From NCBI GenBank assembly GCA_964036195.1, contig OZ038459.1, forward strand, positions 23,991,206 to 24,055,205: a DNA stretch of 64,000 bases, given 5' to 3'. The notes below the pieces were generated by a model. It saw only the letters and a list, made by a program, of their open reading frames with translations. It was not told the origin of the DNA and searched no databases. The position numbers were made by a program, and so were the translations under genes. Positions 8,556 through 58,226 of the stretch are shown here, piece by piece; positions within the stretch are counted from its first letter, which is position 1, and the number at the start of each line of letters is the position of its first letter. The stretch comes from Sphaerolaimus hirsutus (lineage: Eukaryota > Nematoda > Chromadorea > Monhysterida > Sphaerolaimidae).

Positions 8556-11416
8556 ATGGCGAGTAGCTCGCAGTTAGCGGATCTGAACAGACTTATTGAA
8601 CAGCTTGAAAGGCACGGTGATGGCTCAACACCGTTAAGCGAAGAAGAAAGAAACGCGATCTACGTAGCTGTACTCGCATTGGCCGCATTATCTTTTGACG
8701 ATGAAAGCTACCCGCTGGTGGCAATCCAAAGCCCTGTAAAGTGTAAAGTAAAGTGATAAATGTAAAGTCAAATGCAGAGTAAAGTGTCAATTGTCATGAA
8801 ATGTTCAGTAATTGAATGTATTCTTTTTAGTTTTTATTTACACTTGACTTTGCATTTGACTTTACATTTATCACTTTACTTTACACTTTACAGGGCTTTG
8901 GATTGCCCCCAGGATGACAGTTCTGACAAGGACAGCGCGGACGAAGACAGCAATGAAGATGGTGAAAACGGAGAAAAAAAGAGAAGGCCGTACATGTGCC
9001 CCTTCATGGAAGACAGAGTGACATCGCGTGGCCGTTACTGGCAGGCTATACTGTTGGCAAAGAACACAGATCCGAAGTGGTTCTTCAAAATGTCCAGGGT
9101 TCGTTTTCATTTAGTTTCATTTTGGAAACAGTTGAAAAAGTGACATTTATAGTACTTTTTAAGAACTTGCAACAGATAAAAACGTGTTACACAATACATT
9201 TTCAATGTTTGTACAGTTTTCAAGAATGTACAAACTTTTTATAAATCATTTCAGTTATGGCCATCCGAGTTCGAGCAGCTTCATGCCATTCTGACTGCTG
9301 TTAACCCAAATACCGGCCGACCGTACCTACGTGAGCGCGATCCAACGAAACACAAGGCCGTTGTGACAACACAAATGAGATTGTTTTATTTTTTGTACAT
9401 TCTGGGCAACGGCAGGGAATTGGAAGATGCTGCCAGCATTTCACAGGTATTTATGATACACAATGCTTGCATATGCAGCACAGTGCTTGCATATTGAAGT
9501 ACATAACAACTGTGCTGATATACATTGCAGATTTCATCAAGCACGATGCGCTCTGTTGTCGATGAAGTGTCGCAAGCAATTGTCACAGCTTTGCAACACT
9601 GTATGCCTGAAATTGGAACCGACCAGCGAACCATGAAGAACGATGCTTTGAACTATTACAAGATGTGGCAGGTTCCAAATGCATGCGGCGCAATGGATGG
9701 CAAGCACATCAGGATCAGGATGCCAAACAGTAAGTTTTAACATGTATGCATTTCTGAAAACGTACAAGATCAGTTCATATTGTTACAGTTTTCAAAAACG
9801 TTTTTAAATTGTTATGCTGTGATGATTACATTTATGAATACGTATCATGTGAAAAAAAGAGTTGAATACAATTTTGAAAACTTTAAGTATAATTATGTAC
9901 TTTTCCAACATGTCCATTACAGTTTTCAAATATGTCTATACAAGAATAATACTTTGATCACAATTTTGAAAAGTAAAAATATAATTTTATAGTTTTCAAA
10001 AGTGTTCAGTACAGTTTTCAAATATGTCTACACATTTCCAAAACATTTGTGAAAAGTGTGCATCGCCGGTGATGTAAAGCGACGTCGCTGTACGTCGCTG
10101 TACGCAAAAATTTTCAAATTCTGTGGAACATATGTGAAAATGCATCGCCGTACACCGAAAAAGTAGCGAAATCGTCGCCAGGCGTCGCTAGTTTACGGAT
10201 TTTCGCCAACTTACTTCAAAATCCTTAAAAAAAACATGGATGGATGTGTGAATGTAAAATTGAGAGTGTAGATACAGTTTTTTTTGCTGCATGCAATGAT
10301 GGGGTCGTAGAAAACTTAGCATTCATATAAAATTAAATAAAATTTTTTTAAAAAAACGTCGCTGTGGCGACGTTTCAGGCGACGACAGCATATGTCACCT
10401 GTTTACATAACCTATTACCAATTTTGAAAAGTAATTATAGTATGACAGAATTCACATTTTTTTGAACAACGCAGAATCTGGGACTCGGTACTACTGTTAC
10501 AAAGGGTTCTACAGTATCATCCTGTTCATCGTTGCGTCTGCTGATTTGCGCATTACGCACGTCGATGTGGGCATGCCTGGCTCACAGGGTGACACTACAG
10601 TTTTGGCGACGTCAAAGTTTGGACAGCGATTGAAGTGAGTATATAATGTTCAAATTGTGTAAAGAATTGTTTATATGGTTGTTGCATATGTCCCACATTT
10701 CCCAGAAATGACGAATTGGTCATGCCGCCAGCGTGCCTGCTGGCTGGTATGCCTAACGAGCCGGAAAACTACATTGACAGCTTCTTTATCGGTGATCAGG
10801 CTTTTGCTTTGACAAAGAGAGTTATGGTGCCATACTGCGTGCAAACTGGGCAAGATCAAAGGCACTACAACTACCGGTTAAATTAATCTTGCTGATATTT
10901 CAGTGTGCAATGCAATTATTACAAATGGTTTGCATTACAGGTTGTCCCGTGCGCGCCGCTGTGTAGAATGTGTTTTTGGTGTTTTGGCTGCTCGGTGGCG
11001 GATCCTGCTCACCACAATTTCAATGGAACCGCAGAGGGTCAGCAAACTGGTGATGGCCGCGTGTTATTTGCACAATTTTATCAAAGAATTGCGCAGCACA
11101 AATGTATCCGACCACTTTGACGAGGAAGGAAATGAAATGCCACCTGTGCGCGCTGTCGAAGAAGAAAGTCTACGCGACCAAACGGTTAGAAAATCTGAAA
11201 TATTTAGTTTTTGATTTCAATTAATTTATAAATATTTCTCAATGTTCTTATTACACGCAGTTAGATTGGCGCTTGGCGTACAACGGGCTAGATGAAATTT
11301 CGAACGCAAATCACTTGGATGAAACGCGAGATGCCCGGGGCATCAGAGAGAAACTGAAAGACTGGTTTAGATCTGCTTATGGTACACTTCCATGGATAAA
11401 TCCGGATCACTTTTGA
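8556..11416 (+). CDS. PIF/Harbinger-type transposase, complete, eight exons
   Basis: My spliced model has exons 8556-8717, 8913-9098, 9255-9446, 9531-9729, 10475-10634, 10706-10876, 10941-11184 and 11261-11416. Every junction is GT-AG and phase-consistent, giving 489 residues. Family motifs of the DDE_Tnp_4 / HARBI1 type appear in order: GAMDGKHIRI (first Asp, exon 4), YYCYKGFYSIILF and DVGMPGSQGDT (second Asp, exon 5), GDQAFALTKRVM-PY (exon 6), then RLSRARRCVECVFG (Glu, exon 7) and ARWRIL. An acidic linker follows the first exon. The first intron is a MITE (8715-8912). Introns 2-4 contain the element's AGTTTTCAAA-type repeats; intron 4 is 745 nt. No stop or frameshift was found, so the enzyme may be active. 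It cuts and pastes DNA with a 3-bp target duplication in known members. Confidence 0.9.
8715..8912 (+). mobile_element. MITE-A copy 1, forming intron 1 of the transposase
   Basis: Palindromic element with termini CTGGTGGCAATCCAAAGC and its inverse GCTTTGGATTGCCCCCAG, the arms continuing as GTAAAGTGTAAAGT-type repeats for about 60 bp. GT at 8718-8719 and AG at 8911-8912 are donor and acceptor. Removing 8718-8912 joins codon CTG to GAT in phase 0. No target duplication is evident in the flanks. Confidence 0.88.
9730..10474 (+). repeat. Transposase intron 4 with AGTTTTCAAA repeats and a CGTCGC-rich block
   Basis: The motif TTTTCAAAAATGT and its complement recur at short intervals from 9785 to 10035. 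A block at about 10068-10200 and 10358-10400 carries GACGTCGCTGTACGTCGCTG and related CGTCGC words. The same block occurs at 52450-52760 and in weaker form at 19500-19720, so it belongs to the element family rather than to the intron as such. Confidence 0.7.
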
Positions 11417-12253
11417 TTTTTCAAAAATGTTAACGTTAATGTAAACTTTCGTTACGCATTTTAGTATGAAATGACGACATATTTGAAAACAATACATTAA
11501 AACAGTTTTTATTTTTTTATGCTACTGTATTGAATGTGAAATCGTCGCAGTGAGTGTTCACTTGTTGTGAATTTTTTTGCCTTTCATTTCCATGCAAAAT
11601 TGGCTGTCTGAATTGCACTTGTGATTTTTGAAAAAATTATTTCGTTTATTGTTTAAAAAATTCATTATTTATTTTGCGGACATGTTATTGAACTGAATTT
11701 TTTTTGTTCGATGCGCAAAAATGTGGGCTTTTCCATGTGACAATTGTATAATTACACATACACGGATGTAATTTTAAAAAATTATTTAATGTTTTAAACA
11801 TAACCACAATTTCTCCATCATCTTTCAACTTATATCGCGAAATATGGTATCAAATGAAAGAGAAAAAAAAACTGGACATGGATCTCAGACGAATATCATC
11901 TACAACGTAAAACCGAATTTAAAAAAATATTTGTAGGTAGAAAACGAATTAATTTTTAAAAAAATGTATAACAGCGCTAAAAATATACAACACAGTCCCA
12001 AAAATCAAGCATAATTTTCTGCATCACATGCCGCTTACAGCTTGTCCTACAAATTTGTACTTATTGCACAAAAAATTATTTTGTCTGCAGCATTTTACCA
12101 CACTTTTCAAATCTGTGTTCTTCCGGAGGAAAAATAGAAAAAAAGTAAAGATGGCGGCCGTTGGGCTCATTACACAGACTGTTTAAATGCATTTGACAAC
12201 AAAATAATGGGTTTTCACAGAGGGAACCTTGAAAACCAGCTTGTGTGGGGCCA
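11417..12253 (+). mobile_element. 3' non-coding end and right terminus of the Harbinger element
   Basis: Non-coding sequence that aligns by eye with 53617-54453 in the internally deleted relative. It ends in GAAAACCAGCTTGTGTGGGG followed by CCA, the inverse of the terminus seen at 52136 (GGCCACACAAGCTGGTTTTC). A matching left terminus for this copy was not found between 4.6 and 8.5 kb. Confidence 0.75.
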
Positions 12254-12736
12254 TTGCAGTGTAACCACACCTTTTTGTTGTCGTCGGACAGTTTAATACA
12301 TGAATTACATGAGTTTACAGATTACATCCATGCAATGAATTAAGTCCAAGGTTTCTGTGGAACCCCCCCCCCCCCCTTGAATACCTCGCCCCTCCAAAAT
12401 GTCTGAGGAATAAATAACTCCCCTGGGGTCTTATTTGTAGATTTATGGTAAACATAATCTCAGAAAATCTCTCAAAAATAAAATAAAATTAAATATCTCT
12501 GAAAAAACGCTGAGAAAATATAAATAAATATAAATGAAAGATTTAATTATATTTTTTCTAATGAATAAAATATAATTAAATCTCTCTGGAAAACCCCCCC
12601 AGAGAAAATATAATTGAATAAGAGATTTTTTATATTTAATGTTATTTTTTAAATATAAATCTCCCAGAGATTTTTGGAACGCTATTCACGAATATTCTTC
12701 TTTTCATCCGATCAAACAATCACAAATATCACATAG
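12254..12736. other. AT-rich spacer with a C-run TIR-element remnant
   Basis: No coding sequence. At 12356-12440 a C-run followed by TTGAATACCTCGCCCC and CCCCTGGGGTCTTATTTG resembles half of the C-rich TIR family. At 12455-12670 there is an AAATATCTCTGAAAAA-type imperfect inverted arrangement. Confidence 0.4.
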
Positions 12737-12744
12737 CTAATGAT

Positions 12745-13684
12745 TAGTGATGGAAAAGCGCCAGAAAAAAGGGCGCCAGGCGCCAAGGGCGCCATGGCGC
12801 CATTCAGAAAGTGGGCGCCAAGCGCCAAGGGCGCCACAGAAAAAGGGCGCCAGGCGCCAAGGGCGCCATGGCGCCATTCGGAAAGCGGGCGCCAGGCGTT
12901 AAGGGCGCCACGGAAAGAGGGCGCCACGGAAAGAGGGCGCCAAGCACCAAGGGCGCCATGGCGCCATTTGAAAAATAGGGCGCCAGGCGCCAAGGGCGCC
13001 AGGATAAATAAGTGCATAGAATGCCCTGCGTGTGCTAAAACAGTTTCTACAGTACCCTAGTACACACATTCACTACTTAATTCGCGTTCTTCAGGATGTA
13101 ATGAACAAAAACAACACTAGAAGAAAAAAATTAAAATTAAATCCGCATGACGAATTCAAACACAATGGATATTGTCATTTGACAACAATCCATTCACTTC
13201 AAATAGACTTTCCCAATCGATGTTTCCTTGAATTGGACAAAAAATGGAATTGCAACGATTTGAATCTGTTGATTTTTGATTTTGCAAGTCCAACGGTTCA
13301 TCATTCTCGTCTTCTGATCTGTCAGACACATCTGATGAACCGTTGCACAAAAGATTTTCACCCGCTCACACCACTTCATCCATTTTTCTGGCGAATTTAG
13401 ATCATCCACAGATGCGTTTTTCATCTTTTTTTTCATTTACACAGCACTCACCTTGAAACCCTGATGGCGCCTTTTTGGCGCCCTTTTAAAGCAGGGCGCC
13501 AGGCGCCAAGGGCGCCGCGGAAAAAGGGCGCCAAGCGCCAAGGGCGCCATGGCGCCTTTCAGAATGTGGGCGCCAGGCGCCAAGGGCGCCACAGAAAAAT
13601 GGCGCCAAGCGCCAATGGCGCCATGGCGCGGCGCCCTTTGGCGCCCTCAATTGGCGCCAGCGCCATGGCGCCATTCCATCACTA
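12745..13684. mobile_element. hAT-type non-autonomous element with GGCGCC arrays (copy 1)
   Basis: TIRs TAGTGATGGAAAAGCGCC and, inverted, TAGTGATGGAATGGCGCC. A perfect 8-bp target duplication CTAATGAT lies at 12737-12744 and 13685-13692. Both ends carry arrays of GGGCGCCAAGCGCCAAGG units (12760-13005 and 13465-13680). The centre is unique AT-rich sequence shared with the copies at 14740 and 56952. The 8-bp duplication and TAGTG start point to hAT. Long open frames here are artefacts of the array. Confidence 0.9.
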
Positions 13685-13695
13685 CTAATGATGTA

Positions 13696-14577
13696 CCGTA
13701 TTTTCTCGAATAGTTCCACCCTCTTGAATAGTTCCCCCCTTGAATGGTTCCCTCCAGTTAGGCGAGTGAGGAAAAAATAATTCCCCCCCTCGAATAGTTC
13801 CCCCCACTGACGCTCAAAAATACTACATACCGTATTTCCTCGAAATACCACCCCTCGAAATACCCCCCCTTGATATACCCCCATCGTTTGACCCCCCCTC
13901 TCGAGACCACTATGAAACAATCACCCCCCCCTCAAAATACCCCCTCCCAAATTGAGTGTAAAGAGAACGTACATGACAAATACTGCAGTTTGTGTTCTGC
14001 GTACTGCTGAACACACTTCAAAACAATGTCGGAATCACGTAAGAACAATGTTTATACCATCTACGTACTAATATTAGTCTACAGGAGTCTATACATGTCA
14101 GTTATTGATGCATTTTTGTACCCCAGCGCACATCACAAACAACGATTTTGTACTAGGGTTTCAAAAATATTCTGGCGAAATAATCACCCCCCTCGTTTAC
14201 CCCCCCCCCCCCCCCCTCGGGAGCACTATAAAACAATCACCCCCCGGGGGGTATTTTGAGGAAATACGGTATAGTTAAAAAACGATTGATGAAGCAAGCA
14301 TAAGCAAAAGAGCTGCTGCGTCTGGGCATTGAATGCGTCATCAAATGCAAATGCGTCCGGTGTGCAAAGCTGTGGTTGAATTTGAACAAAAATAGCACGT
14401 TGTTTCATAAAACATAAATATTGTGTGAAAAAATTGAAAGAACTGTGCTTGAAAATTTTGACATAAAAATAATTCCCCCCTTGAATAGTTCCCCCCCCCC
14501 CTTGATTAGTTCCCCCTCAAAAAGTCTGAAGAAACTAATAATTCTCCAGGGGAACTAGGTATTCGAGAAAATACGGT
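13696..14577. mobile_element. C/G-run TIR element (CCGTATT family), outer copy
   Basis: Left end ACCGTATTTTCTCGAATAG and right end TATTCGAGAAAATACGGT. C-runs (TTCCCCCC units) lie next to both ends. It is interrupted by a second element of the same family at 13830-14269. It begins 4 bp after the target duplication of the preceding hAT. Confidence 0.75.
13830..14269. mobile_element. C/G-run TIR element nested in its own relative
   Basis: Ends CCGTATTTCCTCGAAATACC and GGTATTTTGAGGAAATACGG, flanked by TA on both sides, which suggests a Tc1/mariner-type TA target. The left arm is C-rich; the right end is CCCCCCGGGGGG followed by the terminus. Confidence 0.8.
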
Positions 14578-14739
14578 TAATACCAAAAGTGTGGGTGTGT
14601 ATAAAAATCTGCGAAAAAGTAGGGCAGCCAAATAATAAATACCTTACTACCTGCTATATAAGGTAAAATATACCTTATATTGATTGCATCAGCTTTTTCG
14701 GTGTTTCGATATACCTCATATTAGTGGTATACTCGGCGG

Positions 14740-15596
14740 TAGTCATGGAAAAGCGCCAGAAAAAAGGGCGCCGGGCGCCAATGGCGCCATGGCGCCATTC
14801 GGAAACTGGGCGCCAAGCGCCAAGGGCGCCACGGAAAGAGGGCGCCAAGCGCCAAGGGCGCCATGGCGCCAATTGAAAAGAAGGGCGCCAGGCGCCAATG
14901 GCGCCAGAATAAAAAAGCGAGTAGAATACCCTGCGTGTGCTAAAAATGCTTCTCCAGCACTGTAGTGCACACATTCACTTCTTTATTCATGTTCTCCAGG
15001 ATGTAATCAGCAAAAATGAGACTAGCAACAAACTTTTGTGCAAAAACCGTACTCACACATGATATTCAATTCAAACACTTTGAAAATTCTCATTCGACAA
15101 AACAATGAATGCACATCAAATAGATTTTCCAATATATGTTTTCTTGAAGCGGACGACAACGGAATTCCGATAATTTCAATCCGTTGATTTACGAGTTTGC
15201 AAGTTCACCGGTCTATCATGCTCAGCTTCTGATCCGTTACACGCATCTGATAAAAATTGGATGAAACATATACATCCACTCACACCACTTTGTCTATTTT
15301 TCAGTGAATTTTGATCATTCACAGACCCGTTTTTTCTTTTTTATTCATTCACGCAGCACTCACCTTGAAACCATGCTGGCGCCATTTTAGCGCCCTTTTA
15401 GGGCAGGGCGCCAGGCGCCAAGGGCGCCACGGAGAAAGGGCGCCAAGCGCCAAGGGCGCCATGGTGCCTTCCAGAAAGTGGGCGCCAGGCGCCAAGGGCG
15501 CCACAGAAAAAGGGCGCCAAGCGCCAATGGCGCCATGGCGCGGCGCCCATTGGCGCCCTCAAATGGCGCCAGCGCCATGGCGCCATTCCATCACTA
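14740..15596. mobile_element. hAT-type non-autonomous element with GGCGCC arrays (copy 2)
   Basis: TIRs TAGTCATGGAAAAGCGCC and inverted TAGTGATGGAATGGCGCC. A perfect 8-bp target duplication CTCGGCGG lies at 14732-14739 and 15597-15604. GGCGCC arrays at both ends and an AT-rich centre match copy 1. Confidence 0.9.
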
Positions 15597-15802
15597 CTCG
15601 GCGGACAGCACACCTAGTATAGAAACCTACCATAATTTGATGAATAAAATCTTGTGATAAACTTCGTAATTAATGATTCCATAGTAATAAATATTAGTAT
15701 AGTAAGAAATGTTATGATGAAAAACTGTATAACGTTTGGTTCATTATTCAGATGGGTTATGGTAGATTTCCATACTAAGTGTGATGTCCACCGAGTATAT
15801 AC

Positions 15803-17564
15803 CAGAGTTGCGAAAACGTATTTACGTTTACCCAAAATACCTGGTTATTTGGGTATTGATACTTACATTTACGTTTACGCTTTCCAAAAATACCGCTACG
15901 TTTTGTTATGTTTTCCTGGCACAATTACCCGGGTTCCAGCGAAAACGTAAAAAGTATGTGAACGGAACCTTATTATTTGACCAATGTCGGGTTTATATGG
16001 TCAGTTCAACATGCTTAAATGTTAAGAGGTTGCCAATTCTGCAAGTGGAGAACTAGAACAATTTATCAGTAAGAAGTCAAAGTTGAAGGAGACGTCAATT
16101 TATTAGTGTGAAGTGAAATGCAGGTAAAAAGACAAAAACGTTTTTAGTGTTTTCTTGTGACTTTGCCACTTGCCACTTATAAATTTATGGTTTTTTTTAC
16201 TTATCACCTGCCATTCAACTTGCCATTACCTCTCACTTATAAATTGTTTGTTTTTTTTAGTTCTCCACTTAAGGAATTGACACACTAGTTCACACTTAAC
16301 TACACCCACTAGTTGACAACGATGCCAAATGTCAACCGGTTCCGATCCAACTCAATATCCTGATCCCATCATTCTGTTTAAAATATAGGTAATACACTAC
16401 CGTGCAGAATAGTTGAGACTTTTCACACATAGAGAAACAGTAGGCTGGGGGTCCACCACACTTTTTTGCTTCCCAATTTCTTGTCCCTTGCGCAATTTTG
16501 ATGCTGTTTGAGTATGTTGGAATGTGATGCTGGGGCTACTATGAAAATTTTTTGTTTGCTCAAATAATCCCCCAGGCCCGAGATAAGTGGGGTCTATAAA
16601 AAGATGGTCTATAAATATACAAAAAAATGTGCAATCTGGATGACTGTCTTTGAAGCTTAATAACTCAACCATTTCTGGGCTACTTTGAATCATCCAACAC
16701 TTACAATGATCGGGACAACCTGCAGATTCTACTTTTGTGGTTGGTTTAGTGATGTCTAAATTCCATATGTCAATTTGACCCAGTTTTTGAACATGACAAA
16801 ATAATTTTTTTGAACATGCTATCATATTCTTTAGACAATGAGGATTCATTTCAAACAAAAATGAGTTCAATATCTCTTTCCAATCAAAAGTTATGGCACT
16901 TCAAAGTTTTCAATGGTGTCTAAATATTTTATGCTTATTTTACTGGGGTTTGCAGCATAAATTTTTTGTTATTGAACAGTCTATAACATACTTTAGACAG
17001 AGAGAATTAATATGACAAAAGCGTTTTTTCAATATCTCTTTCCAATCAAAATATATAGCACTTACAATCTTCCATCTTCATTCCATCCAAAATAATTGCA
17101 CATTACTCATTCACAGTTGGGCCAACTTTTCTCCCTAATAGAGCAAAGCAAACATGAACAAACTGAGTTAATATGTTTGAACTCGAGGGGCAGTCATCCC
17201 AGGCATGTGTAGTCAACCCCCCAGGGTACCTATGTATAGTATCCAAATGTTTTGCATATCGACCATTTCGAAATTCTGGCAACATTAATCACGCAGCGCA
17301 TAAAGTCTCAACTATTCTGCACGGTAGTGTATTAATGTCAATGAAGATCATAGGAACGTAAATAGATAATGTTGTAAAAAGGTTGTTTTTATATTAACTG
17401 ATAGTGGTAGCACTTGATAAATTTTTTTACGTTTACGTTTTATTTTACGTATTCCCAGGTATTTTAAAAATACCTTACATTTTAGTATTTATACTCCAAT
17501 CTTTGAAAACGTATTTACGTTTACGTTTACGTTTTCCAAAAATACCAGTATTTGAACAACTCTG
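15803..17564. mobile_element. hAT-type element with ACGTTTACG arrays, split by a mariner insertion
   Basis: TIRs CAGAGTTGCGAAAACG and, at the right, CAACTCTG. A perfect 8-bp target duplication GTATATAC lies at 15795-15802 and 17565-17572. Both ends carry tandem TTTACGTTTACG words and an AATACC-type spacer. A related element lies at 44786-45290. Positions 16395-17329 are a later insertion. No transposase frame is visible. Confidence 0.85.
16395..17329. mobile_element. Tc1/mariner-type non-autonomous element
   Basis: Perfect TIRs CACTACCGTGCAGAATAGTT continuing GAGACTTT, inverted at 17302-17329, with TA at 16393-16394 and 17330-17331. The interior has inverted sub-repeats (TTCAATATCTCTTTCCAATC occurs twice) but no transposase. 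Confidence 0.88.
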
Positions 17565-17923
17565 GTATATACTTTAAATTGTTTTCGCCAGAGTTTGCAA
17601 ACAAATTACAACAGTGAATTGAACAAATTAATGTCAATGAAGATCATAGGAACGTAAATAGATAATGTTGTAAAAAGGTTGTTTTTATATTAACTGATAG
17701 TGGTAGCACTTGATAAATTTTTTTACGTTTACGTTTTATTTTACGTATTCCCAGGTATTTTAAAAATACCTTACATTTTAGTATTTATACTCCAATCTTT
17801 GAAAACGTATTTACGTTTACGTTTACGTTTTCCAAAAATACCAGTATTTGAACAACTCTGGTATATACTTTAAATTGTTTTCGCCAGAGTTTGCAAACAA
17901 ATTACAACAGTGAATTGAACAAA
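17332..17923. repeat. 296-bp tandem duplication covering the right end of the hAT element
   Basis: The sequence beginning TTAATGTCAATGAAGATC at 17332 restarts at 17628 and is near identical for its length, including the ACGTTTACG array and hAT terminus. The duplication therefore arose after both the hAT and mariner insertions. Confidence 0.85.
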
Positions 17924-17998
17924 TTACAGCAGTGAATTGAACAAATTACAACAGTGAATTGAACAAATTACAACAGTGAATTGAACAAATTACAACAA
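17897..17998. repeat. 22-bp minisatellite
   Basis: About four and a half copies of ACAAATTACAACAGTGAATTG plus A, near identical, at the downstream edge of the tandem duplication. Confidence 0.85.
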
Positions 17999-18274
17999 AA
18001 ACGCATTTCCAAACTGGGATGTAATGAATTGGTGAACCAGTGTCAATAGAAAATGACCAGATTTGGAGCTCAATTTGATTTTCTAAAACAAACTGAAATA
18101 TGTTCAAATGCAAAAAAATACTCTGTCTCTACGTAGTCGATGTAGGGTTGTCTGGTTGTATGGGTGCCCTCGGACACCATTTTCATCTTTTTTTTCATTT
18201 TCATTTCTCACCAATTTTAGCCACTGTTTTTTTCTCACCATTTCCGCTGTATGGAAACCTCACTCAAAAGAAAC

Positions 18275-18604
18275 CCTAAAATACACATCAAAACGTTCAT
18301 CGGGTACATAGTTGACCGGGTCAGACATGTCGTAGGCGAGCAGGCACACCTTCGTCAAGCTCGAGTGCGCCACCGCGCTGCACCGACCACGAGACACCTG
18401 GGCGCAGTCCCAGACCCTGTGAAAAGCCCTGTACAATGTCAAATGTCAGGCAAAGTGTCAAAGGCTATGTAGAATGCCCTCGAAAAATTGCAAACATATG
18501 TTTTGACAATTGTTTTGACAATAAACATTTTACAGGGAATTTTACAGCGTCTGGGATTGACACCTGGGCGCAGCTGTGCGTGCATAGCATGGCAGATGGG
18601 ATAT
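18275..18604 (-). CDS. Two-exon piece of an unidentified gene (paralogue of 61554-61792), intron made of MITE-A
   Basis: Exon 1 is 18604-18564 (41 nt), after a strong pyrimidine tract ending CTCCAG. Exon 2 is 18397-18275 (123 nt, 41 codons). They flank a 166-nt intron 18563-18398 with GTGTCA donor and CAG acceptor. The peptide has CTHSCAQ in exon 1 and AVAHSSLTKVCLLAYDM in exon 2. The copy at 61.5 kb has exons of exactly the same lengths and 28 of 41 residues identical in exon 2, so these are genuine coding exons. The next donor is the weak GTTTCT. I do not recognise the family; more exons are expected on both sides. Confidence 0.75.
18398..18563 (-). mobile_element. MITE-A copy 2, coincident with an intron
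   Basis: Read on the minus strand it starts GTGTCAATCCCAGACGCTGT and ends with the inverse terminus GGGACTGCGCCCAG. The interior has the family's TGTCAAAGTGTC-type arms. Both ends coincide to the base with the intron defined by the paralogue. CTGCGCCCAGGTGTC occurs at both exon boundaries. Confidence 0.85.
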
Positions 18605-18659
18605 CTGGAGGGGGAGGGGGGTTGAAAGTGAAATAAGTTTTAAAGTTAAATTACAGCGA

Positions 18660-18812
18660 GTAATCTATAATTTATCGCCGAAACTTAGCGCCGGAAAAAG
18701 CGCCTACTTTTACGCAATGGCGCTTTTTTGCCCAGCGTAAAGCGTATTGAAGCCCAGCGCCATGCGTCAATGGCCAGATGCACCATGCCACGGCGCTTTT
18801 CCGTCACTATTC
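18660..18812. mobile_element. Degenerate relative of the GGCGCC hAT element
   Basis: Contains AGCGCC words in both orientations and ends CGGCGCTTTTCCGTCACTA, close to the inverted terminus of the hAT family. No target duplication is recognised. Confidence 0.5.
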
Positions 18813-18849
18813 TAACGATGGCAAACCACCACTTCACCACTTCACCATC

Positions 18850-18984
18850 CTGGGGGCAGTCCCATACCCTGTAAAAAGCCCTTACTCGGTTGCCATTTTA
18901 CAGGGCATTTTCCACGACTTTTGACACTTTGCATGACATTTGACATTTGACAGGGCTTTTTACAGGGTCTGGGAGTGCCCCCAG
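18850..18984. mobile_element. MITE-A copy 3 (non-intronic form)
   Basis: Short palindrome with ends CTGGGGGCAGTCCCATACCC and GGTCTGGGAGTGCCCCCAG and AAAAGCCCT / AGGGCTTTTT arms. It keeps GGG, not GTG, at both ends and I cannot fit it as an intron. Confidence 0.8.
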
Positions 18985-19110
18985 CATCACACACTCAATT
19001 TTTTGATTCACTGGCGCAAAAGCACGCAGTTGTCTGTGGGGGTTTTACTTTTCCTGTAGGTATATAGAAATCCACTTTTTTTGTCGAAATCTCAAGCAAA
19101 CCAGTCCATT

Positions 19111-20786
19111 GTGGCTGCACAAGCTAGTTTTCATGGTCCCAATTTGAAAACTTGTTCAAAAACTGAATGGCAACGCGAACGCTGATTGACGCTTCCACCA
19201 TCCCGCAACTGCCCACTTGGACTCAGTGAACTAGTATTAGGATGCAATTATTAGTTTACAGAAATGACCAGTCCATGAACTACTGTTAAATGAGATCGAC
19301 AATATTTCAGTCGAGTTTTCAAATTGGAACCATGAATATCCCATTTGGACACATTACCTGTTTTATCACAGTTGAGTTTAAAAAAAGGTAAATTAGCATT
19401 TTTAGTTTTCAATAATGACATCTGATAAATGGTTTCGGCAAGTCACATTTTTCGGCTACATTGACATTCTGGTAACCTTTTTTGAAAACTGTACTGCGAT
19501 GCATCACCGAGACAGAGGCAATGTGTCGACAACATCGCTGTACGTGTCGCCATTCAGTTTTCAAAAATGTTTATTTTGGTTTTCAATTTGTGTTTTCAAA
19601 GGTGAAAACTGGCAATGTAGGGCGACACGTTGCCCATGTCACCAGTTTTCAAAACTGTTATCCAATGTTGAATAGTGCCAGCATTGCCAAAACGTTGCCA
19701 AATGTGTCGCTGGCGACATGCCAGCTACGTGAGTTTTCAACAGATCGCCAACTCAGAAAAAGTGCCCCAAAATGCACTGGATGGTGACAGAACATTCAAA
19801 TTAAAAGGACTTATACAGAATTTATTACTTTATCTAATGGTGGGTACCACAACATGTGGAAATAGCCAGAACATGTTTTATTCAATTAAATGGAAAATGT
19901 TTTTATTTTTCGAATTTTTCCCCCCTGTGGCCTGTTGTTGCTGTTGTTGTTTCTCTTGATGCACAATATCTGGGCAACTTCATAGCAAGCTGTATTTGCT
20001 AAAAATATGTCCCACAATAATTTTTTGTAAAAAGTTTGAAAACCTGAAATCAGTGCTTGCTGACACCATTTACTTGATGCCTGGACCATGATAACAACAA
20101 TCCTGGGCTGGATAAAGACTTATGAGGGCTGTTTGTCTGTTTTCAGTATTGCCATTTGAGTTTTCATTTTTGTCAGTATTCTTTTAAAGCTGTTTTCATT
20201 TTTTGGTGCAAGAATTGCAAACAAGTTAATTGTTCCCATTCTTTTGGTTTTGCATCCTAAAAAATAGCTGTTGTAATGTGTGCAAAGGCTGCAACTACAT
20301 GTTCAGTAAAAACCATCTTAAAAATTGTTTCATGTTACATAATTACATTTTTATTTTTTTTTATACTTATACATAGCTCATTTCCACAACAACCAAATGA
20401 AAGAGAATGAAAAACTACAAATTTATGCCAGAGGGCTATTATCTAAAATGCAATATAGAATTTGAAAAATCTTTTAACAAATAAAACAAAAATTTTTTTT
20501 AAATGTATGCGATCACTAAAAATCACCAAAATGTACCAAAAAATACAGCATCATTTTCTCCATCACTTGCCTTTAACTGCATGTCCCACAAATGCGTACT
20601 TATTTAACCAAAAAAGTATTTGTCTGCAGCATTTTTCCAGAGTATTCAATAATGACTTCACATGAAAACTAACAAAAAAACAAAGATGACGATTGTTTTA
20701 GGCGATTCTGACACAGTATTGAACCAAAAAATGAGTTTGCAATGAGGAACCGTGAAAACTAGCTAGCGTGGTGCCAATACGGTAGC
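19111..20786. mobile_element. Harbinger-related non-autonomous element
   Basis: Left end GTGGCTGCACAAGCTAGTTTTC, right end GAAAACTAGCTAGCGTGGTGCC. The interior shows AGTTTTCAAA words, CGTCGC-type words near 19530-19720, and a 3' part (20340-20780) resembling 11770-12250. No transposase exons remain. Near 19870-20150 I see no recognisable coding sequence. Confidence 0.7.
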
Positions 20787-21104
20787 TTGTGTGGCGTCAC
20801 TGTATACAGTGCGTGCGCACGTGGGACATCGCCAGGTGCTATTTGACGATAACAAAATGACGCCAGAACCGAGGCGCCATTCCATCGCTAGTGAGTGGCG
20901 TTCAACGAGGTATAAAAACGGTCAATATATTATATGGGTTGACCTTGTATTGTTTCAATGGTGGCGCCTGGCGTCGGCCTTGCTGAAATATTGTGTGCCT
21001 TTTGGAACTGCTTTACTATTTGCACCTGGTCGTTTCGATGGAGATCTGGGCAGAATAGATTGGGTTCAAAAGTGGGTTTATGCTCATTTCAAGATTTACT
21101 CCAG

Positions 21105-21690
21105 TGACATTACACCTTACCAATGAAATCTACCTTATCCCAACTGAATAAAAGAACAAACATAAAAACCTTTCATCATTTTTATCAAATTGCTTTGATA
21201 AATATAATGTAGAAAAATTTACGCTATTTACACAGGCCCCGGCCGGGGACCGGTCCCTGGCAAAAAATTAAAATTGTCAAAAGTCAGTAATTGGTGTGTA
21301 TGGGTTGATTGCATGTAAATTAAATAAATTAACACCAATTTTGCATGCACAAAATTTCTGCAACACGGTTACACACACACACCCATGCATATTTTTTGGG
21401 GGTGTGTGTAAATTTTGTTTGATTTGGCTCAAATTTGGCATGCGTGTACTCCTTCGCTTAGTGAGTTCGCATGCCAAATTTCAGCTCAGGCTGATTAGTG
21501 AGTCCTATTTTATTTGGACTTTAATTTTCATCGATCACTGTATAGTTGTATAGTGATTGAAAAATTATTTTTTGCCGGGGACCAGTCCCCGGCCGGGACC
21601 TGTGTAAATAGCCAAAAATTTATCTTTGTTCTTTTATTCCAATGGGATATGTTAGGTTTCATTGTAAGGTGTATACCAAATGTATCCTAC
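21105..21690. mobile_element. Foldback element interrupted by a second TIR element
   Basis: Outer inverted arms: ACACCTTACCAATGAAATCT at about 21111 and its diverged inverse at 21612-21680. Inner element about 21222-21612 has TIRs TTTACACAGGCCCCGGCCGG / CCGGCCGGGACCTGTGTAAA. Confidence 0.75.
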
Positions 21691-21789
21691 AGCTACAAGC
21701 TTCGATTTGTAAATGATCTTTTCATATTCTCCTACATTTTCGAAATATCGTACCAGAGTTTTTTGCCAGCAAAAGTTAGAGGGGGTTAG

Positions 21790-21958
21790 GTAACTTGAGT
21801 AAGGGGGTTAGTGGTAAGAGTAAAAAAAATAAAAAATGATAAATGATTTTACTCAACTCTTAACTTTTATCTTTACTCTTAACTTATCATTTATCAGTTT
21901 ACTCAACTCCTAAGTCTTAACTCTTTACTCTTAACTTTTCCACTTGTAGAACCGGCAC
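21790..21958 (-). mobile_element. MITE-B copy 1, its terminus forming a splice donor
   Basis: Built of AAGAGTTAAGAGTTGAGTAA-type inverted arms. On the minus strand it begins GTGCCGGTTCTACAAGTGG, so its first bases are a GT donor directly after the exon ending CTTCTG at 21959. The opposite terminus is too degenerate to place the acceptor. Confidence 0.65.
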
Positions 21959-24900
21959 CAGAAGACCATAACAGACCACACCACTATTTATTACAAATGA
22001 AAATACCCCAAAATGGTCATTCAGCTGACCGTGCTGCACTTGACAAAGCCCGACATAATAAACATAATTTACAGAAGCTGTCAAGTTTCCAGATTCAATA
22101 TCTATGATAGCATACGTCCTTGTTCCAGATGTTGGGGGGTCACCTGGAGGAACTCCCAGACCCCGCAAAGTGCCCTGTAAAATGTCCGATTTCACGCAAA
22201 GTGTCAAAAGTCATGTAAAATGTCCTGTAAACTTCACTTGACATTTTAGAAAGCATTCTACACGACTTTGACACTTTGGATGACATTTGCCATTTTACAA
22301 AGTATTTTTAAGGTTCTGAGAGTGTCACCGGGAATCCACATGTCACGGATGTGCTGCTCCATGGGCCAATCCCACGTGCGAATGTCAGAGAAGCCCTCAT
22401 TGTACCACTCACCTGGGGCGAAATTTAATTTGTCCGGGTTTTTTTTCGGGCAGCCCGACCTATCCTACACACGTTATCTTAAGCTATCGTATTTCCTCGA
22501 ACTACCCCCCCCCCTCGAAATACCCCCCCCCCCTCGTTTAACCCCCCCCTCTCGGGACCACTATGAAACAATCACCCCCCGGGGGGTATTTCGAGGAAAT
22601 ACGGTATTTACACGACTTATTCTACACACGTTGAAGAAATGGCTGTGATAATGGCAGCAGAACTGATCAAAGTTGAGATGAGATTGAGAAAAGCTGTTCC
22701 TAAAAAGTCACTACATTTGAATTTTACCTGTAAAAAGTATTATACAGTCATCCCCGGGTTATCGGGTGGAGTAATTTTTTTGAAATATCACCCTATAATC
22801 CGGGGAACCCGATAACCGGGGGGTGCACTATAGAAGTGTCCCAGTGCTGGTGCATGGCGTTTCAAGCATTTACATCACTAATACGAGAAAATTAGGCTTT
22901 TTAAATGCAGTAATTGTGCAACGTTTAAAATGTACATTTTTGATGTTCATATGTAAATTTATACTCCATGGACAGCACAGTTAACATTTATACCGTTTTT
23001 TTACACTTGAATACCCAATAATTGAAGGAATTTTATATATACCGCAAATCCTCGAATAAGACCCCCCTCGAATAACTCCCCCCCTTGAATAAGTCCCCCC
23101 TGCTGGCGGGGTGAGGAAAAAATAAGGGTCTTATTCGAGGATTTAGGGTATATATATATATAAATGCCAAAAAAAATTCCAAAATTCCACCCGATAACCC
23201 GGGAATGCGGGGAATAACGATGGCAAACCCCCCGAAAAAAAGTATTTAAATTTTTAAGTGTTTTTTTCAAATTGAATATTCGAATTTTCGAATTTTTCCT
23301 CAAGTTAATTTTCGAATTTCGAATTTAATTTTCGAATTTTCGAATTTTCAAATCTTTTTGGGCAGTTTTCGAAAATTTTTTTGGTAATTTTCGAATTTTT
23401 GTGGATAATTTTTGAATTTTTAGGAAAATATTGAATCAAGAGCTTTTAAGCTGTTAATTAGTTATGTTGAAATAGTTATGGGTGCTCGGTGCATTTCTGC
23501 ACATTCCTCAATGTGACTGGGTCCACCCATAGCTGAAATTGGCGGTGGCTGTACTGGGAGGGGGGATCACCAGACTTTTGTGTCATTCCATTCTGTTGTA
23601 CATTTGCTGATTTTGATGTCATTCAAGTATGTTGGGGTTTGGGTCTGGGTATGACCATTTTTTGGTTTTCCTCAAATATAATCTCCCAGTCCCAAGGATA
23701 AGGGGGGTGTCTATTTATGATAATTTCACACGGCTGATCTGGCTAGTTGAATTTGAAGCTTATAACTTGGCCATTGCTGGGCCGATTTGAACCATTCAAA
23801 AGTTAAAATAATCTACACAACCTATCGATTCAATTTCTGGGGTTGATTTAGTGATGTCGACATTTTGATGTCAATTTGACTCTGTTTATATGTGATTTAT
23901 ACATATAATGCCAGCACACACACTAGTTTACCAACATGAAATGCTCGACCATTTCGGTAAACTGTTTTGACAAAACAGTACGAAACACCGTACAGAGTTG
24001 TACGGTGCTTCGTACTGTTTTGTCAAAACAGTTTACCAAAATGGTCGAGCATTTCATGTTGGTAAACTAGTGTGTGTGGGGCCATTTACCATAAATCCTC
24101 GAATCCCACTTGAATAACTCCCCCCTCGAACAAGTCCCCCTCAAAAACTTTTGACAAAAAACTCCCCTGGGGACTTATTTGAGATAAACAGTATTTACAT
24201 CAAGTATATGATAGCATGTTCAGAAAAATTCATGTTAGATGTTGAAATACTGGGTCAAATTAGCATAACAAATTTTTACATCACTAATCTAACCTGAAAA
24301 ATGGAATATACAGATTGTACAGATCATTTTAAGTATTTAATGGTCCAAATCGGCCAAGAAATGGCTGAGTTATTAAGCTTTCAATTCAACTTGCCTGATT
24401 GGCCATTTAAAATAAACACCTTTTATAGACCCACCTTATCTCGGGACTGGTGGATGATTCGAGGAAACAAAACAATTCAGTCATAGCCTTGACCCGGAAC
24501 CACAACATACTTGGACGGTATCAAAATTGGCTGACGTGTAACAGAATGGGCAACACAAAAGTCTGGTGTTCATCCAACCCCCTAAAATGTCATTCCCGAT
24601 TCCAGCTATGGGTCCACCATGGATGTCATTTCAATGTTTTTAAACGTTTTTTGTTTTGTTTCGATACACTTTTTCAGACGCACCGCGCCTCAATTGTCGA
24701 GCGAATTAGCACATTGAACTTAAGAATGTGTTATAATTATGTCCTTGAATTCCCTGAAAAATTCGAAAAGTATTTTCGAATTTTTGAATTTTTGAATTTT
24801 TTGAAAAATAAATCGATTTTTAAGTGTTTTTTCCAATGGTGAAATAAAAATTCGAAAATTCCGAAAAAATTCGAAAATTCGAAAATGTTTTCGAATTTTC

Positions 24901-25867
24901 GAATCTTTTTTTGCCATCGTTAGCGGGGAACCCTTCAATCCGGGGAATTTTGTTCACTAGTGTCCCCGCTTTTCAAAATTGTACCCATTAACCCGGGGAA
25001 CCCTATAACCGGGGGAACCGTTAACCCGGGACGACTGTACTCAGTTTTTACACTATGTAAGAGTTAAAAAATTATTTTACATTTTCTGTTCCCACCCAGG
25101 GGTGTGTAAAAAAATTTTTTACGTTACGTTTAATTTAAAACGTCAAGACAGTTGACCTACCGTATTACCTCGAATTAACCCCCCCCCCCTTGAATTAACC
25201 CCCCCCCCTCGAAATACACCCTCTAAAATACCACTCCTAAAATTGAGTGTAAGGAGAACATACATGACAAATACCGCAGTTTGTGATCTGTATTTACAAT
25301 GCAGAATACACGCTAACAGTGATGATTGAGTGACGTTAGGGGAGGGTTTACCTATGTGTATATACGGTTATATATGCCTATACGCACATATACATCTATG
25401 TAATTTTTTGATTTTTCTACGCCTGAGTATGGGGAATTGCCGAAAATTTCTGGCGAAATAATAGACCCCCCTCGAATATTCCCCCCTTCGAATTACCCCC
25501 CTCAAATTTTGCTGGCGAAATAATAAACCCCCTGGGGGTATTTCGAGGTAATACGGTAAGTTACTTTTTGCTTATGTAAACTTTGAAAAAGTCTAGTACT
25601 TTTAACAACTCTGATGGGGACTGCTTGTTTGCAAACAGCAAACAAACTGCAAACGGCACCACATCAAGTCGGGTGATGAAATATTTCCTGAAATGGATTG
25701 GGCTGCCCGAAAAATGTGTCGGGCTATTTAAATTCAGCCCCTGAGTCTTCCTTCATTTGAAGACCCAATGCGACTCCATTGGTGCCAACCAGCTGTAAAT
25801 TTGGATACAGAATATCAATACCACATATTGAAACAGTGGATTCACTCTGATCGTTGGACATGATGGG
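21959..25867 (-). CDS. Exons of an unidentified gene separated by TIR elements
   Basis: Three open exon-like segments on the minus strand: 25867-25744 (124 nt), 22412-22329 (84 nt) and 22143-21959 (185 nt). Phases fit in series (ends 1, 1, 0) and no stop occurs. The second and third join at ATTCCCG / GTGACCCC, removing MITE-A copy 4, to read through an IPG-DPPTSG junction. The third exon encodes a Tyr/Val-rich stretch (YAIIDIESGNLTASVNYVYY). The first and second are separated by element C, whose left side has no GT donor, so that junction is doubtful. The segment ends at a MITE-B donor. I do not recognise the protein. Coding status is inferred from frame, phase and splice sites. Confidence 0.55.
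22144..22328 (-). mobile_element. MITE-A copy 4, coincident with an intron
   Basis: On the minus strand it begins GTGACACTCTCAGAACC and ends GGTCTGGGAGTTCCTCCAG, with TGTAAAATGTC-type arms. The GT and AG lie exactly at the exon edges of the 22-kb gene. Flanks show an imperfect direct repeat GTCACCTGGA / GTCACCGGGA. Confidence 0.8.
22487..22604. mobile_element. Minimal C/G-run TIR element
   Basis: 118-bp version of the CCGTATT family: TCGTATTTCCTCGAACTACC, C-runs, CTCTCGGGACCACTATGAAA, then CCCCCCGGGGGG and GTATTTCGAGGAAATACGG. Confidence 0.8.
23517..24622. mobile_element. TIR element within the Tigger-like element
   Basis: Ends GGGTCCACCCATAGCTGAAA and, inverted, GGACCCATAGCTGGAATCGG, followed inward by ACCAGACTTTTGTG on both sides. 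It carries the 23914-24079 foldback and a C-run element at about 24091-24192. Confidence 0.6.
23914..24079. mobile_element. Near-perfect 166-bp foldback MITE
   Basis: Inverted arms of about 80 bp starting CACACACTAGTTTACCAACA with centre near CACCGTACAGAGTTGTACGG. The terminal CACACTAGTTT resembles the ends of the 47404-47650 element. Confidence 0.85.
25160..25558. mobile_element. C/G-run TIR element (TTACCTCGAA subtype)
   Basis: Ends CCGTATTACCTCGAATTAAC and GGGTATTTCGAGGTAATACGG, TA on both sides. C-runs at the left, CCCCCTGGGGG at the right. Confidence 0.8.
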
Positions 25868-26035
25868 CTGGGGGCAGTCCCAAGCCCTGTAAAGTGTGGA
25901 GTAAAGTGTCAAATGTTAAGTCAAATGCAACGTAAAGTGTCAATCAAAAAAAGAAGATTTTATTACGGAACTTTGCATGACAATTGACACTTTACTTTGC
26001 ATTTGACTTTACATTTGACACTTTACATTACACAT
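25868..26035. mobile_element. MITE-A copy 5 (one end degraded)
   Basis: Left end CTGGGGGCAGTCCCAAGCCC, then GTAAAGTGTGGAGTAAAGTG arms and their inverse to about 26030. The far terminus is lost. On the minus strand its CCCCCAG end abuts the open segment 25867-25744 as a possible acceptor. Confidence 0.7.
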
Positions 26036-26079
26036 TATGCTGCAATTACAGCTCGGGCGTAAAATTGACTGGATGTAAA

Positions 26080-27010
26080 ATAAATTTTGGGCGTAAAATT
26101 GATTACAGGTAGGGTGTCAACTTTCCGTTTTCCGTTTTCCGTTTCCGCTTTCCGCAGGCAAATTTTTTTCCATTTCCGTTTCCATTTTCGGCTGCTAAAT
26201 TTTTTTTCCGTTTCCGTTTCCGTTTTTCCGGCTCATTTTCCGTTTTCTGGCTAAAATTTCAGTTTTTCCACCTTTTTTCCGTTTTCCGGCTCAATTGTAT
26301 GTTTTTCCAACTTTTTTTCATTTTCTTGCTCAATTATCTGTTTTCTGTTTCAGCCAAACTGGTAAACATGCATGCAGGTTCTAAATTATGTGAATTGTTT
26401 CTATTTCTAGCAAGATTTCTGCAAATTTTTTGATTTCTGGATAAATTTGTGCAATTTTTTTCCGTTTCCGGCAAAATTTCAGCAAATTTTTTCCGTTTCC
26501 GGCATAATTTCAGCAAATTTTTCCGTTTCCATTTCCATTTTCCGGGCTTTCATTTTTCCGTTTTCCGTTTTCCGGCAGGTGGAAATTTTTTTCCGTTTCT
26601 GTTTCCGTTTTCCGGCAAGTGCAAACTTTTTTCCGTTTCCGTTTCCGTTTTCCGCCAAAAAGTTTTTGTTGACACCCTAATTACAGGTGAATGGATGAAG
26701 ATAATGGCGTTGTAATTTCAGTCAAAGAAAGCGCACATGCAGATGTTGCTTGTGTCCAAAGCTCATCAGTTTATTTTAATCATACTGGGAGTTATGAATT
26801 TTGGCACAAATTTTTTTAATTAAGTTACAAACAAAGTTACAGCGCATAATTAGAAAAAATTGTGCTAAAATTCATAACTCCCAGTACAATTGAAATAAAC
26901 TCATGAGCTTTGGACACAAGAAACGTCTGCATCTAAGCTTTCTTTGACTGAAATAACAATGTCGTATCTTATCCATTCATCTGCAATTAATTTTCCGCCC
27001 AAAATCAATT
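26080..27010. mobile_element. Long-TIR palindromic element interrupted by a hAT and abutting the gap
   Basis: Arms of more than 150 bp: TGAATGGATGAAGATAATGG at 26688 onward pairs with the inverse at 26960-26985, continuing through CAAAGCTCATCAGTTTATTT. The outer arm TTTTGGGCGTAAAATTGATT is split off by the hAT at 26110-26679. The right end runs into the N gap. Confidence 0.75.
26110..26679. mobile_element. hAT-type element with TTTCCG arrays (copy 1)
   Basis: TIRs TAGGGTGTCAAC / GTTGACACCCTA with a perfect 8-bp target duplication ATTACAGG (26102-26109 and 26680-26687). The interior is almost wholly TTTCCGTTTTCCGGCA words. Open frames here are repeat artefacts. Confidence 0.88.
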
Positions 27011-27210
27011 NNNNNNNNNNNNNNNNNNNNNNNNNNNNNNNNNNNNNNNNNNNNNNNNNNNNNNNNNNNNNNNNNNNNNNNNNNNNNNNNNNNNNNNNNN
27101 NNNNNNNNNNNNNNNNNNNNNNNNNNNNNNNNNNNNNNNNNNNNNNNNNNNNNNNNNNNNNNNNNNNNNNNNNNNNNNNNNNNNNNNNNNNNNNNNNNNN
27201 NNNNNNNNNN
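27011..27210. other. Assembly gap (200 N)
   Basis: Exactly 200 N, probably a placeholder of unknown true length. It removes the integrase C-terminus and 3' LTR side of the Gypsy element. Confidence 0.99.
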
Positions 27211-27647
27211 ACGCGTACCGCTTGCCCGCGTTGCACATTTAATCGACGCGCACGGCGATTGGCGTAAAATTGTTCCTTTTGCTGCGCCTTTGCTAAAGCG
27301 GTGTGCGCAGCTTCGCGTGCTGTAGTCAGACGCGCGCCTAACTCATTTATAAGAGCGCACTTATGCGGCAATGAGGGCAATGCCTCAGTGTCAGGGGGAG
27401 GCTCGATCATACGCTCCCACATAGATGCAGCAGGCTTGCCAAATAGCAACGCATAGGGGGTGGTTTGCAAAGACGGGTGTTTCGATGTATTGTACGCATG
27501 TACAGCGGCGCCTAAATGTATGTCCCAATCGTCATGTGTACGATTTACGTAGTGAGATACTATTTCCATCAGAACACCATTCCTACGTTCCACCATTCCG
27601 TTACTCTTGGGGGTGTACGCAAAAGACGTGTGCTGGGTTGCATTCAA
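27211..27647 (-). pseudogene. Ty3/Gypsy integrase, C-terminal part of the core (frameshifted, cut by gap)
   Basis: Continues the integrase of the preceding frame after a frameshift near 27650. Shows the third catalytic residue in NGMVERRNG, then a helical tail (HDDWDIHLGAAVHAYNTSKH) typical of Gypsy integrase. It is lost in the N gap. The open frame nominally continues across the gap, but the distal part is MITE sequence, not gene. Confidence 0.85.
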
Positions 27648-34552: not shown

Positions 34553-34581
34553 TTTTACCAGCGGCTTCCGCTCCTGTAATT

Positions 34582-57165: not shown

Positions 57166-58226
57166 CAGGGTTGGTTTTATAAAAATTCATTTTAGTAAAA
57201 TTGTATAAAAATTGTATAAAAATTTTATTTTATTTTTATTTTATTCTTGTTTCATTTTATTTTATTTTATTTTATTCCCAAAAGTCATTAATAAAATAAA
57301 ATGACACATTTTACAAAAAATTTACAAAAATTTTACAAAAAAATCAGAAACATGCATGCAAGGCCAGAAAAATGTTATAATTAGACCTATACATGAAAAA
57401 CCTGTGACAAATTTTTCCCTTACTTTTCAAAAGTTGCATGCAGTATGTATTGTTAGCTAGCTGCAAGTGTAAAGTTACAATTATTGATAAGAATGGTTAG
57501 CATTTTCAGTAGAAGGACTACTGGAGTGTGCTGGGCACATTTGTAAAATGTCATGCAGTGTCAATTGTCATGACAAATGTAAAGTAAAGTATCAATTGTC
57601 ATGCAAAATGTCAAGTGTCATGTAAAATTTCAAGCAAAGTGGCAATTGTCATGACAAATGTCATGCAAAGTGTAAATTGTGTATCCAAATCTTGTATTTT
57701 TGTATCCATAGTATGTTTTATATCCAAATCTTATGTTTTTGTATCCAAATGTTCAAATAAGATTGTATCCCAATAAGATTTGGAGTCAACAACAACATAA
57801 TTTGGATACAAGACATAAGATTTCGAAATAAAACATGAAATTTGAACACAATTTGCTCGACAATTGATACTTTAATTTTTACATGTCACAACAATTTACA
57901 CTTAACATGACAATTGACACTTTGCATGACATTTTACATGACATTTGACATCTTACAATGATTGGGACTGCCCCCAGATCCATGAACAAACAGGTAGAGA
58001 CTCAAGCAATGAGATAAAAGTTTACAAAAAATATGAATTTTTATACAATTTTACAAAAATGCGAATTTTTATACAATTTTACAAAATTTTTACAAAAATT
58101 CGAATTTTTATACAATTTTTATTTTTATTCTTAAATTTTCCATTTTATTTTATTTTATTTTATTCTTGAATATTCCATTTTATTTTTATTTTATTTTTAT
58201 TTTTATCTGAGATTTTGCCAACCCTG
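57166..58226. mobile_element. hAT-type element, CAGGGTTGG family, with AT-rich arrays
   Basis: Ends CAGGGTTGG / CCAACCCTG and perfect 8-bp target duplication TAGTAGAC (57158-57165 and 58227-58234). Arms are ATAAAAATTTTATTTTATT and TTTTACAAAAATTCG arrays. It carries MITE-A copy 7 at its centre. Confidence 0.88.
57532..57977. mobile_element. MITE-A copy 7
   Basis: Many TGTCATGCAAAGTGTCAATT words in inverted arms and right end GATTGGGACTGCCCCCAG. The left end CTGGAGTGTGCTGGG is diverged. The centre holds TTTGTATCCAAATCTTAT repeats. Confidence 0.65.

Follow-up and report, generated by a model that had tools for sequence, protein, structure and literature searches.

The window analysed here is a stretch of 64,000 nucleotides from the nematode Sphaerolaimus hirsutus, located at positions 23991206-24055205 of contig C15 in an assembly of 348 Mb and 762 contigs. 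It holds a HARBI1-like transposase gene, exons resembling PAN domains and several copies of a family of miniature inverted-repeat transposable elements (MITEs), here called MITE-A. Self-BLAST of the window places this family at six positions: (i) 8718-8909; (ii) 18401-18563; (iii) 18853-18981; (iv) 22147-22328; (v) 25871-26037; and (vi) ~57542-57977. Two extra matches, of 39 and 23 bases, were left out of the count as too weak; the initial annotation had listed seven copies. Introners are a leading explanation of bursts of intron gain and are known from few animals. The idea that MITE-A is such an introner is strongly supported by sequence comparison, namely by empty sites, by conserved genes interrupted in frame and by the orientation of the copies, whose GT end comes first wherever homology reveals the coding strand.

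Three copies in coding sequence and their paralogues

The first copy forms a putative intron on the plus strand (8718..8912, i.e., the element at 8718-8909 plus the 3' triplet CAG; ends GTGGCA...TGCCCC-CAG) in the HARBI1-like transposase gene. The 5' exon (8556..8717, +; MASSSQ...SYPL), delimited by translation and by a paralogue, L088, and the next exon (8913..9098, +; DDSSDKDS...FFKMSR), delimited by translation, join in the N-terminal coding region as ...DDESYPL|DDSSDKDS.... They are followed on the same strand by six ordinary GT-AG introns at 9099-9254, 9447-9530, 9730-10474, 10635-10705, 10877-10940 and 11185-11260. A Pfam search gave no match for the N-terminal exons around the copy, and a DDE_Tnp_4 match (3.2e-8) downstream of it.

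The diverged paralogue L088 (C1:25983451) offers an aligned empty site, reading GAGCAGGACGAC vs. CCGCTG[element-CAG]GATGAC in the window. Its empty junction, ...GAGCAG|GACGAC..., leaves the protein register unchanged, and the protein alignment at the site (DVENDEQDDSSDED vs. DDESYPLDDSSDKD) shows zero residues gained or lost. Among the seven HARBI1 paralogues fetched at this site, five carry the copy, with 98.1-99.0% identity along the stretch, while L088 lacks it and L087 is not alignable there. The HARBI1-like family is multi-copy, with 359 matches in the genome, and its transposon appears to have multiplied after gaining an intron in its own gene.

The second copy lies in a PAN-domain-like exon on the minus strand (18398..18563, comprising the element at 18401-18563 and the triplet CAG; ends GTGTCA...TGCGCC-CAG), where PAN_1 matches across the junction at E=0.0036, under the Pfam cut-off. 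Its spliced product, 58 residues with the junction after residue 13, found 27 tblastn matches in the genome, nine of which begin at residue 1, 2 or 3 and cross the junction; matches beginning at residues 6-10 were left uncounted because the direct repeat at an insertion can mimic such an edge. In the best paralogue (C3:2155276-2155449), residues 1-58 are encoded in 174 unbroken nucleotides (47% identity). The third copy (22144..22328, -, comprising the element at 22147-22328 and the triplet CAG; ends GTGACA...TTCCTC-CAG) lies in an exon for which the Pfam search gave no match. Here, an 86-residue spliced query with its junction after residue 34 found 24 tblastn matches, and the paralogue at C3:2144089-2144262 has 58 stop-free codons for 58 residues over the junction (42% identity). 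Several other matches that cross this junction hold one stop, and a neighbour at C15:23888728/23889056 has the same split. The exons of both copies belong to clustered PAN-like paralogues at C15:23.53-24.10 Mb and C3:2.02-2.24 Mb, only some of which contain MITE introns.

The initial annotation is confirmed in part. The three coding copies, one on the plus and two on the minus strand, do have the GTGNCA donor ends and the CCCAG- or TCCAG-type acceptor ends that it described. For all three, excision gives joined open frames and paralogues elsewhere in the genome have the exon uninterrupted, aligned for copy 1 and contiguous in tblastn for copies 2 and 3. However, removing a clean element together with one duplicated triplet always restores the frame and, in consequence, exactness proves little and frame restoration alone is no evidence for an intron.

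A polar family with a CWG target duplication

MITE-A is abundant beyond the window. Sixteen 10-kb stretches from outside it (eight around palindromic matches to the terminal inverted repeat, TIR, and eight at arbitrary coordinates) contain numerous further copies, with 15 MITE-A pieces in the arbitrary ones alone. The element is polar, its two ends being unlike: one reads GTGCCA and the other GGGGCA, which is TGCCCC when read on the donor strand. As a rule, CAG or CTG precedes either end and NTCCCAGACCCTGTAAA follows it. Exact 26-base ends were counted over the whole genome, with reversed-pattern controls giving 0 in all four cases. There are 2601 GTGCCA ends, 1418 after CAG and 1183 after CTG, and 1884 GGGGCA ends, of which 1126 are CTG|GGGGCA and 758 CAG|GGGGCA; on the donor strand these correspond to the acceptors TGCCCC|CAG (1126) and TGCCCC|CTG (758). 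Among 25 hand-listed elements, 22 carry GT at one end and not at the other (two of these with a non-standard other end); L017:691 has GT at both ends, and the copies at window 18853 and L005:7481 lack it at either end.

The GT end is, hence, a family-wide polar feature. It had been proposed that the better-preserved copies keep GGG, that GTG occurs in introns only, and that one substitution in the TIR makes the donor; with 2601 exact GTGCCA ends in the genome, this view fails. As for the three window places outside the putative introns, all without assigned strand, (i) the copy at 18853..18981 has GGGGCA at both ends, with CTG and CAG as flanks; (ii) that at 25871..26037 has lost one end, and its TGCCCC-CAG end (minus strand) adjoins a possible exon; and (iii) that at 57542..57977 is a composite, diverged MITE-A-related copy ending in TGCCCC-CAG.

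MITE-A sits between two copies of CWG (W being A or T), a 3-bp target site duplication (TSD). In contig C1 below 25.5 Mb, the range where all four exact-end listings are complete, paired exact ends are CAG/CAG in 15 cases, CTG/CTG in 11, CTG/CAG in 4 and CAG/CTG in 0. The acceptor AG is therefore the right-hand (3') CWG duplicate and no part of the TIR, where the initial annotation had seen a nearly ready acceptor. The same 5'-CWG-3' TSD, along with TIRs, is described for the NuwaI group of the PHIS superfamily, found mainly in animals (PMC4482050); the empty HARBI1 site reads CAG. A DDE transposase and a Myb/SANT protein are encoded by NuwaI elements (PMC4482050), whereas MITE-A is non-autonomous. 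The HARBI1 element of the window was considered as its autonomous partner and set aside, its right end being unlike the TIR of the MITE. No autonomous partner with MITE-A TIRs was found, in a search that did not extend to the left end of the HARBI1 element or to a Myb/SANT gene.

MITE-A is thus very probably a polar non-autonomous DNA transposon with a 3-bp CWG TSD (of the PHIS superfamily and, judging by the TSD, NuwaI-like) that acts as an introner by carrying the donor and borrowing the acceptor from its 3' duplicate. The element would insert at CWG and, where the coding strand has its GTGCCA end upstream, the GT of the element would serve the spliceosome as donor; the 5' edge CAG|GTG fits part of the donor consensus. 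The acceptor would be the duplicated triplet on the 3' side, CAG or CTG, so that the messenger RNA would regain the target with nothing gained or lost.

The inverted repeats would pair over most of the intron. In 47 intact copies, predicted folds have a mean minimum free energy of -104 kcal/mol, and 20 of these 47, compared with mononucleotide shuffles, have a mean z of -16 (range -26 to -1.4). In the 44 non-duplicate copies, predicted pairing on the 5' side is 5-16% at +1 to +4 (5% at +1 and +2), 89% at +5/+6, 61% at +7 and 95% at +8/+9; on the 3' side, it is 0-11% at -1 to -7 (0% at -1 to -3), 93-95% at -8/-9 and 61% at -10. The mismatch of the ends (GTGC vs. CCCC) would leave the first four and the last seven bases single-stranded and adjacent. 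In these predicted structures, the T and the C that distinguish GTGCCA from GGGGCA may be what keeps the splice sites open, and the hairpin may aid splicing.

Conserved genes and orientation

Sixty further copies were fetched by exact end, all from contig C1 and none from beyond its first 8.4 Mb: (i) the first 20 listed with CAG on the donor side (L021-L040); (ii) the first 20 listed with CTG on the acceptor side (L041-L060); and (iii) 20 copies with CAG on the acceptor side, taken from the first 26 in that listing (L061-L080), the other six being passed over, four because they had been fetched before and two needlessly. Dropping the near-duplicates L038, L045 and L059 leaves 57 counted copies, including five (L023, L026, L027, L030, L063) whose second end is unresolved or non-standard. 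Genes were searched with Pfam around 29 of the 60 copies and around L007, picked by eye, as were the frames of L048, L051, L053 and L062.

Pfam matches run across seven junctions, and all seven copies are GT-first on the coding strand: Oscp1 in L036 (CAG; 3.4e-19) and L048 (CTG; 4.4e-17), the large subunit of DNA primase in L044 (left CGG, right CTG; 2e-12), Srx in L058 (CTG; 1.3e-7), BCKDHA/E1_dh in L060 (CTG; 4.4e-5), STAG in L064 (left CTG, right CAG; 4.7e-13) and CHGN, a chondroitin N-acetylgalactosaminyltransferase, in L069 (left CTG, right CAG; 4.2e-16). The BCKDHA product aligns without gaps over RGW|WDD with 1dtw-type PDB chains (1.9e-18), and the two OSCP1 copies lie in adjacent parts of one gene (profile positions 1-50 and 48-89). 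At these seven junctions and in the three window copies, homology thus sets the ends of similar elements at or near predicted splice sites. Domains of CHGN, STAG, Patched/SSD and Srx-type GPCRs mark the genome as that of an animal. Elsewhere, LRR matches in L029 adjoin the junction, none across it; a Patched-like gene in L007 holds two CTG copies, its SSD match stopping before one junction and the junction open reading frame (ORF) at L007:9314 having no Pfam match; and the junction ORFs of L005, L006 and L017 (both strands) gave no Pfam match.

Two arrangements were seen in these stretches: at L007:4051-4318, by eye, a reversed MITE-A is nested in an ordinary GT-AG intron of the Patched-like gene; and at L005:4830-5021, MITE-A interrupts what looks like the glycine loop of a kinase (GTGNFAK|VFKM; AAG on the left, CAG on the right) in a short piece without Pfam match.

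The informative tests, those able to fail, are orientation, gene conservation and acceptor bias. With one frame rule for all 57 copies, sense junction ORFs matched nine Pfam families in seven of the 57 members (members deduced), six of the seven spanning the junction; L048 was missed, another frame being picked. Antisense junction ORFs under the same rule gave 0/36 and 1/19, the one match at E=0.008, two further ORFs being too short for the Pfam search. At E of 1e-4 or better, the comparison is 7/57 sense vs. 0/55 antisense (Fisher p=0.013). Measured up to 150 bases from the restored junction (n=57), the open length is greater in sense for 33 copies, greater in antisense for 12 and equal for 12 (one-sided Wilcoxon p=3.3e-4). 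A codon-likelihood test on the same 57 copies (739 training codons) favours sense by 13 to 5 at threshold 6 and by 21 to 12 at threshold 4.

Several observations weigh against reading MITE-A as an introner. Frame restoration is automatic for any clean insertion; copies 2 and 3 of the window lack strong Pfam domain matches; for 50 of the 57 copies, Pfam gave nothing for the junction ORF; antisense is often open too, with at least 30 codons in 23/57 (sense 37/57); the codon-likelihood test is weak, the donor-CAG set giving 4 vs. 4 at threshold 4; all 60 fetched copies come from one end of a single contig; and the folded sample was picked by exact ends, so that end pairing is partly built in.

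Plain gene-disrupting insertions, with only apparent exact excision and with pseudogenes or null alleles as the genes hit, have in their favour that the frame argument is a tautology and that CTG-flanked copies lack AG at the duplicate. This explanation is nevertheless quite unlikely: conserved genes are open on both sides of the element, GT-first orientation prevails, the acceptor side is biased to CAG, several near-identical HARBI1 transposons hold the element inside their gene, and a single OSCP1 gene has elements of two classes in neighbouring parts (L036, L048). Removal from DNA instead of RNA, as a programmed or somatic precise excision like that of the internal eliminated sequences of ciliates, would suit CAG and CTG equally and make splice sites unneeded. 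Such excision should be blind to the direction of transcription, yet GT comes first at every one of the seven junctions supported by homology; moreover, CAG is in excess, more so at the acceptor side, and the copies are present in the assembly. It was rejected on the strand bias and is held to be extremely improbable.

Putative CTG acceptors and known systems

On 758 of the 1884 exact acceptor ends (~40%) the triplet is CTG and the 3' AG of a GT-AG intron is absent, while CAG copies have it. The only AG near the 3' end of a standard CTG copy is that of TTTACAG, inside the 3' TIR. As an acceptor it was rejected, since with the GTs of the 5' TIR it leaves 19, 25 or 37 nt, none divisible by 3; this exclusion covers copies with standard ends, deeper site pairs, which would add residues, being left out. 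Therefore, for BCKDHA and OSCP1, the protein would be kept most simply if the stretch removed had CTG, or a shift-equivalent edge in the duplicate, as its end, and CTG-flanked copies may use TG as acceptor.

It could instead be that only CAG-flanked copies are spliced, those with CTG in genes being recent, deleterious and on their way to loss, or rescued by a T-to-A change at the acceptor. CAG does exceed CTG on both sides (1418:1183 and 1126:758), and discordant flanks favour a right-hand CAG, with left CTG/right CAG in 4 paired exact ends vs. 0 for the reverse, and with 5/19 vs. 1/20 in the fetched copies (p=0.09). Against this, CTG-acceptor copies interrupt BCKDHA, OSCP1, primase and Srx genes with intact frames; their frames are open as often as those of CAG copies (at least 30 codons in 12/18 vs. 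11/19 and 14/20; antisense 8, 7 and 8); and 758 exact CTG acceptor ends, counted over all the genome and not in exons alone, are no rare residue. Splicing restricted to CAG copies is, in consequence, regarded as rather doubtful. The CAG share is higher on the acceptor side (59.8%, 1126/1884) than on the donor side (54.5%, 1418/2601; p=5.2e-4), which fits a slow repair of a poor acceptor.

It seems somewhat more probable than otherwise that hundreds or more coding-exon introns of this one transposon family have TG as their sole 3' splice site, the acceptor being the duplicated CWG. Their splicing would proceed via the TIR hairpin, with the open GT and CWG adjacent, and selection would slowly turn CTG into CAG. 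If true, introns with GT...TG as their sole ends would occur on a genomic scale in this animal. MITE-A forms a large polar set that brings its own control, given that the symmetric CWG yields CAG and CTG acceptors, even in one gene. It would make testable how far the U2 spliceosome can do without a 3' AG, whether RNA hairpins can replace that AG, and how selection mends a bad acceptor.

The following known systems come closest. Introners, introns derived from DNA transposons, arise from short elements that bear TIRs and TSDs; the cited study reports them in two animal groups only, and those of Chrysochromulina carry the 5' splice site and co-opt the 3' one from the TSD (Gozashti, 2022; PMC9860276). 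MITE-A is like them in its TIRs, its TSDs and in carrying one splice site while taking the other from the TSD, but its TSD is a 3-bp CWG, of which one W orientation would give a TG acceptor. In Fritillaria borealis, non-canonical introns have a YAY triplet at both edges and a non-AG 3' end, the commonest ends being AG/AC and AG/AT, and U2AF is duplicated (PMC13326754). This too is an animal in which a short triplet at both edges of the intron accompanies a 3' end other than AG; MITE-A, by contrast, has GT with CAG or CTG. TG also serves as 3' splice site in human U2 introns, but, in the account cited, only beside an AG and never as sole 3' site (PMC2374985); in MITE-A it would be the sole one. 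In the nonconventional introns of euglenids the ends are joined by RNA pairing, CAG/CTG pairing occurs near the ends, and 5' GT/C ends occur (PMC4770533). The predicted end pairing of MITE-A follows a similar plan at other offsets: +5 to +7 would pair with -10 to -8 (24 of the 44 copies folded), against +4 to +6 with -8 to -6 in euglenids. A 5' end not complementary to U1 also marks the euglenid introns, whereas the CAG|GTG edge of MITE-A still fits part of the donor consensus. Euglenids belong to a different phylum, and the six ordinary introns of the HARBI1-like gene are GT-AG. Among the literature matches listed, no MITE-A-like family was found, although newer introner papers may hold one; the one match on introners and Harbinger was a fungal paper, and nothing among the matches listed concerned GT-TG together with intron gain.

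Apart from MITE-A, a dispersed repeat, which has runs of C and a GGGGTATTTCGAGGAAATACGGTA-like motif, was seen by eye at 13.7-14.6k, 22.5k and 25.1-25.6k of the window, and at 5.5k and 8.4k of L007. Finally, window positions 26901-36333 (-) hold ORFs of 257, 703, 243, 792, 431, 256 and 583 amino acids that together look like a gag-pol-env-type retroelement, and a masked stretch near 27 kb lies within this region.

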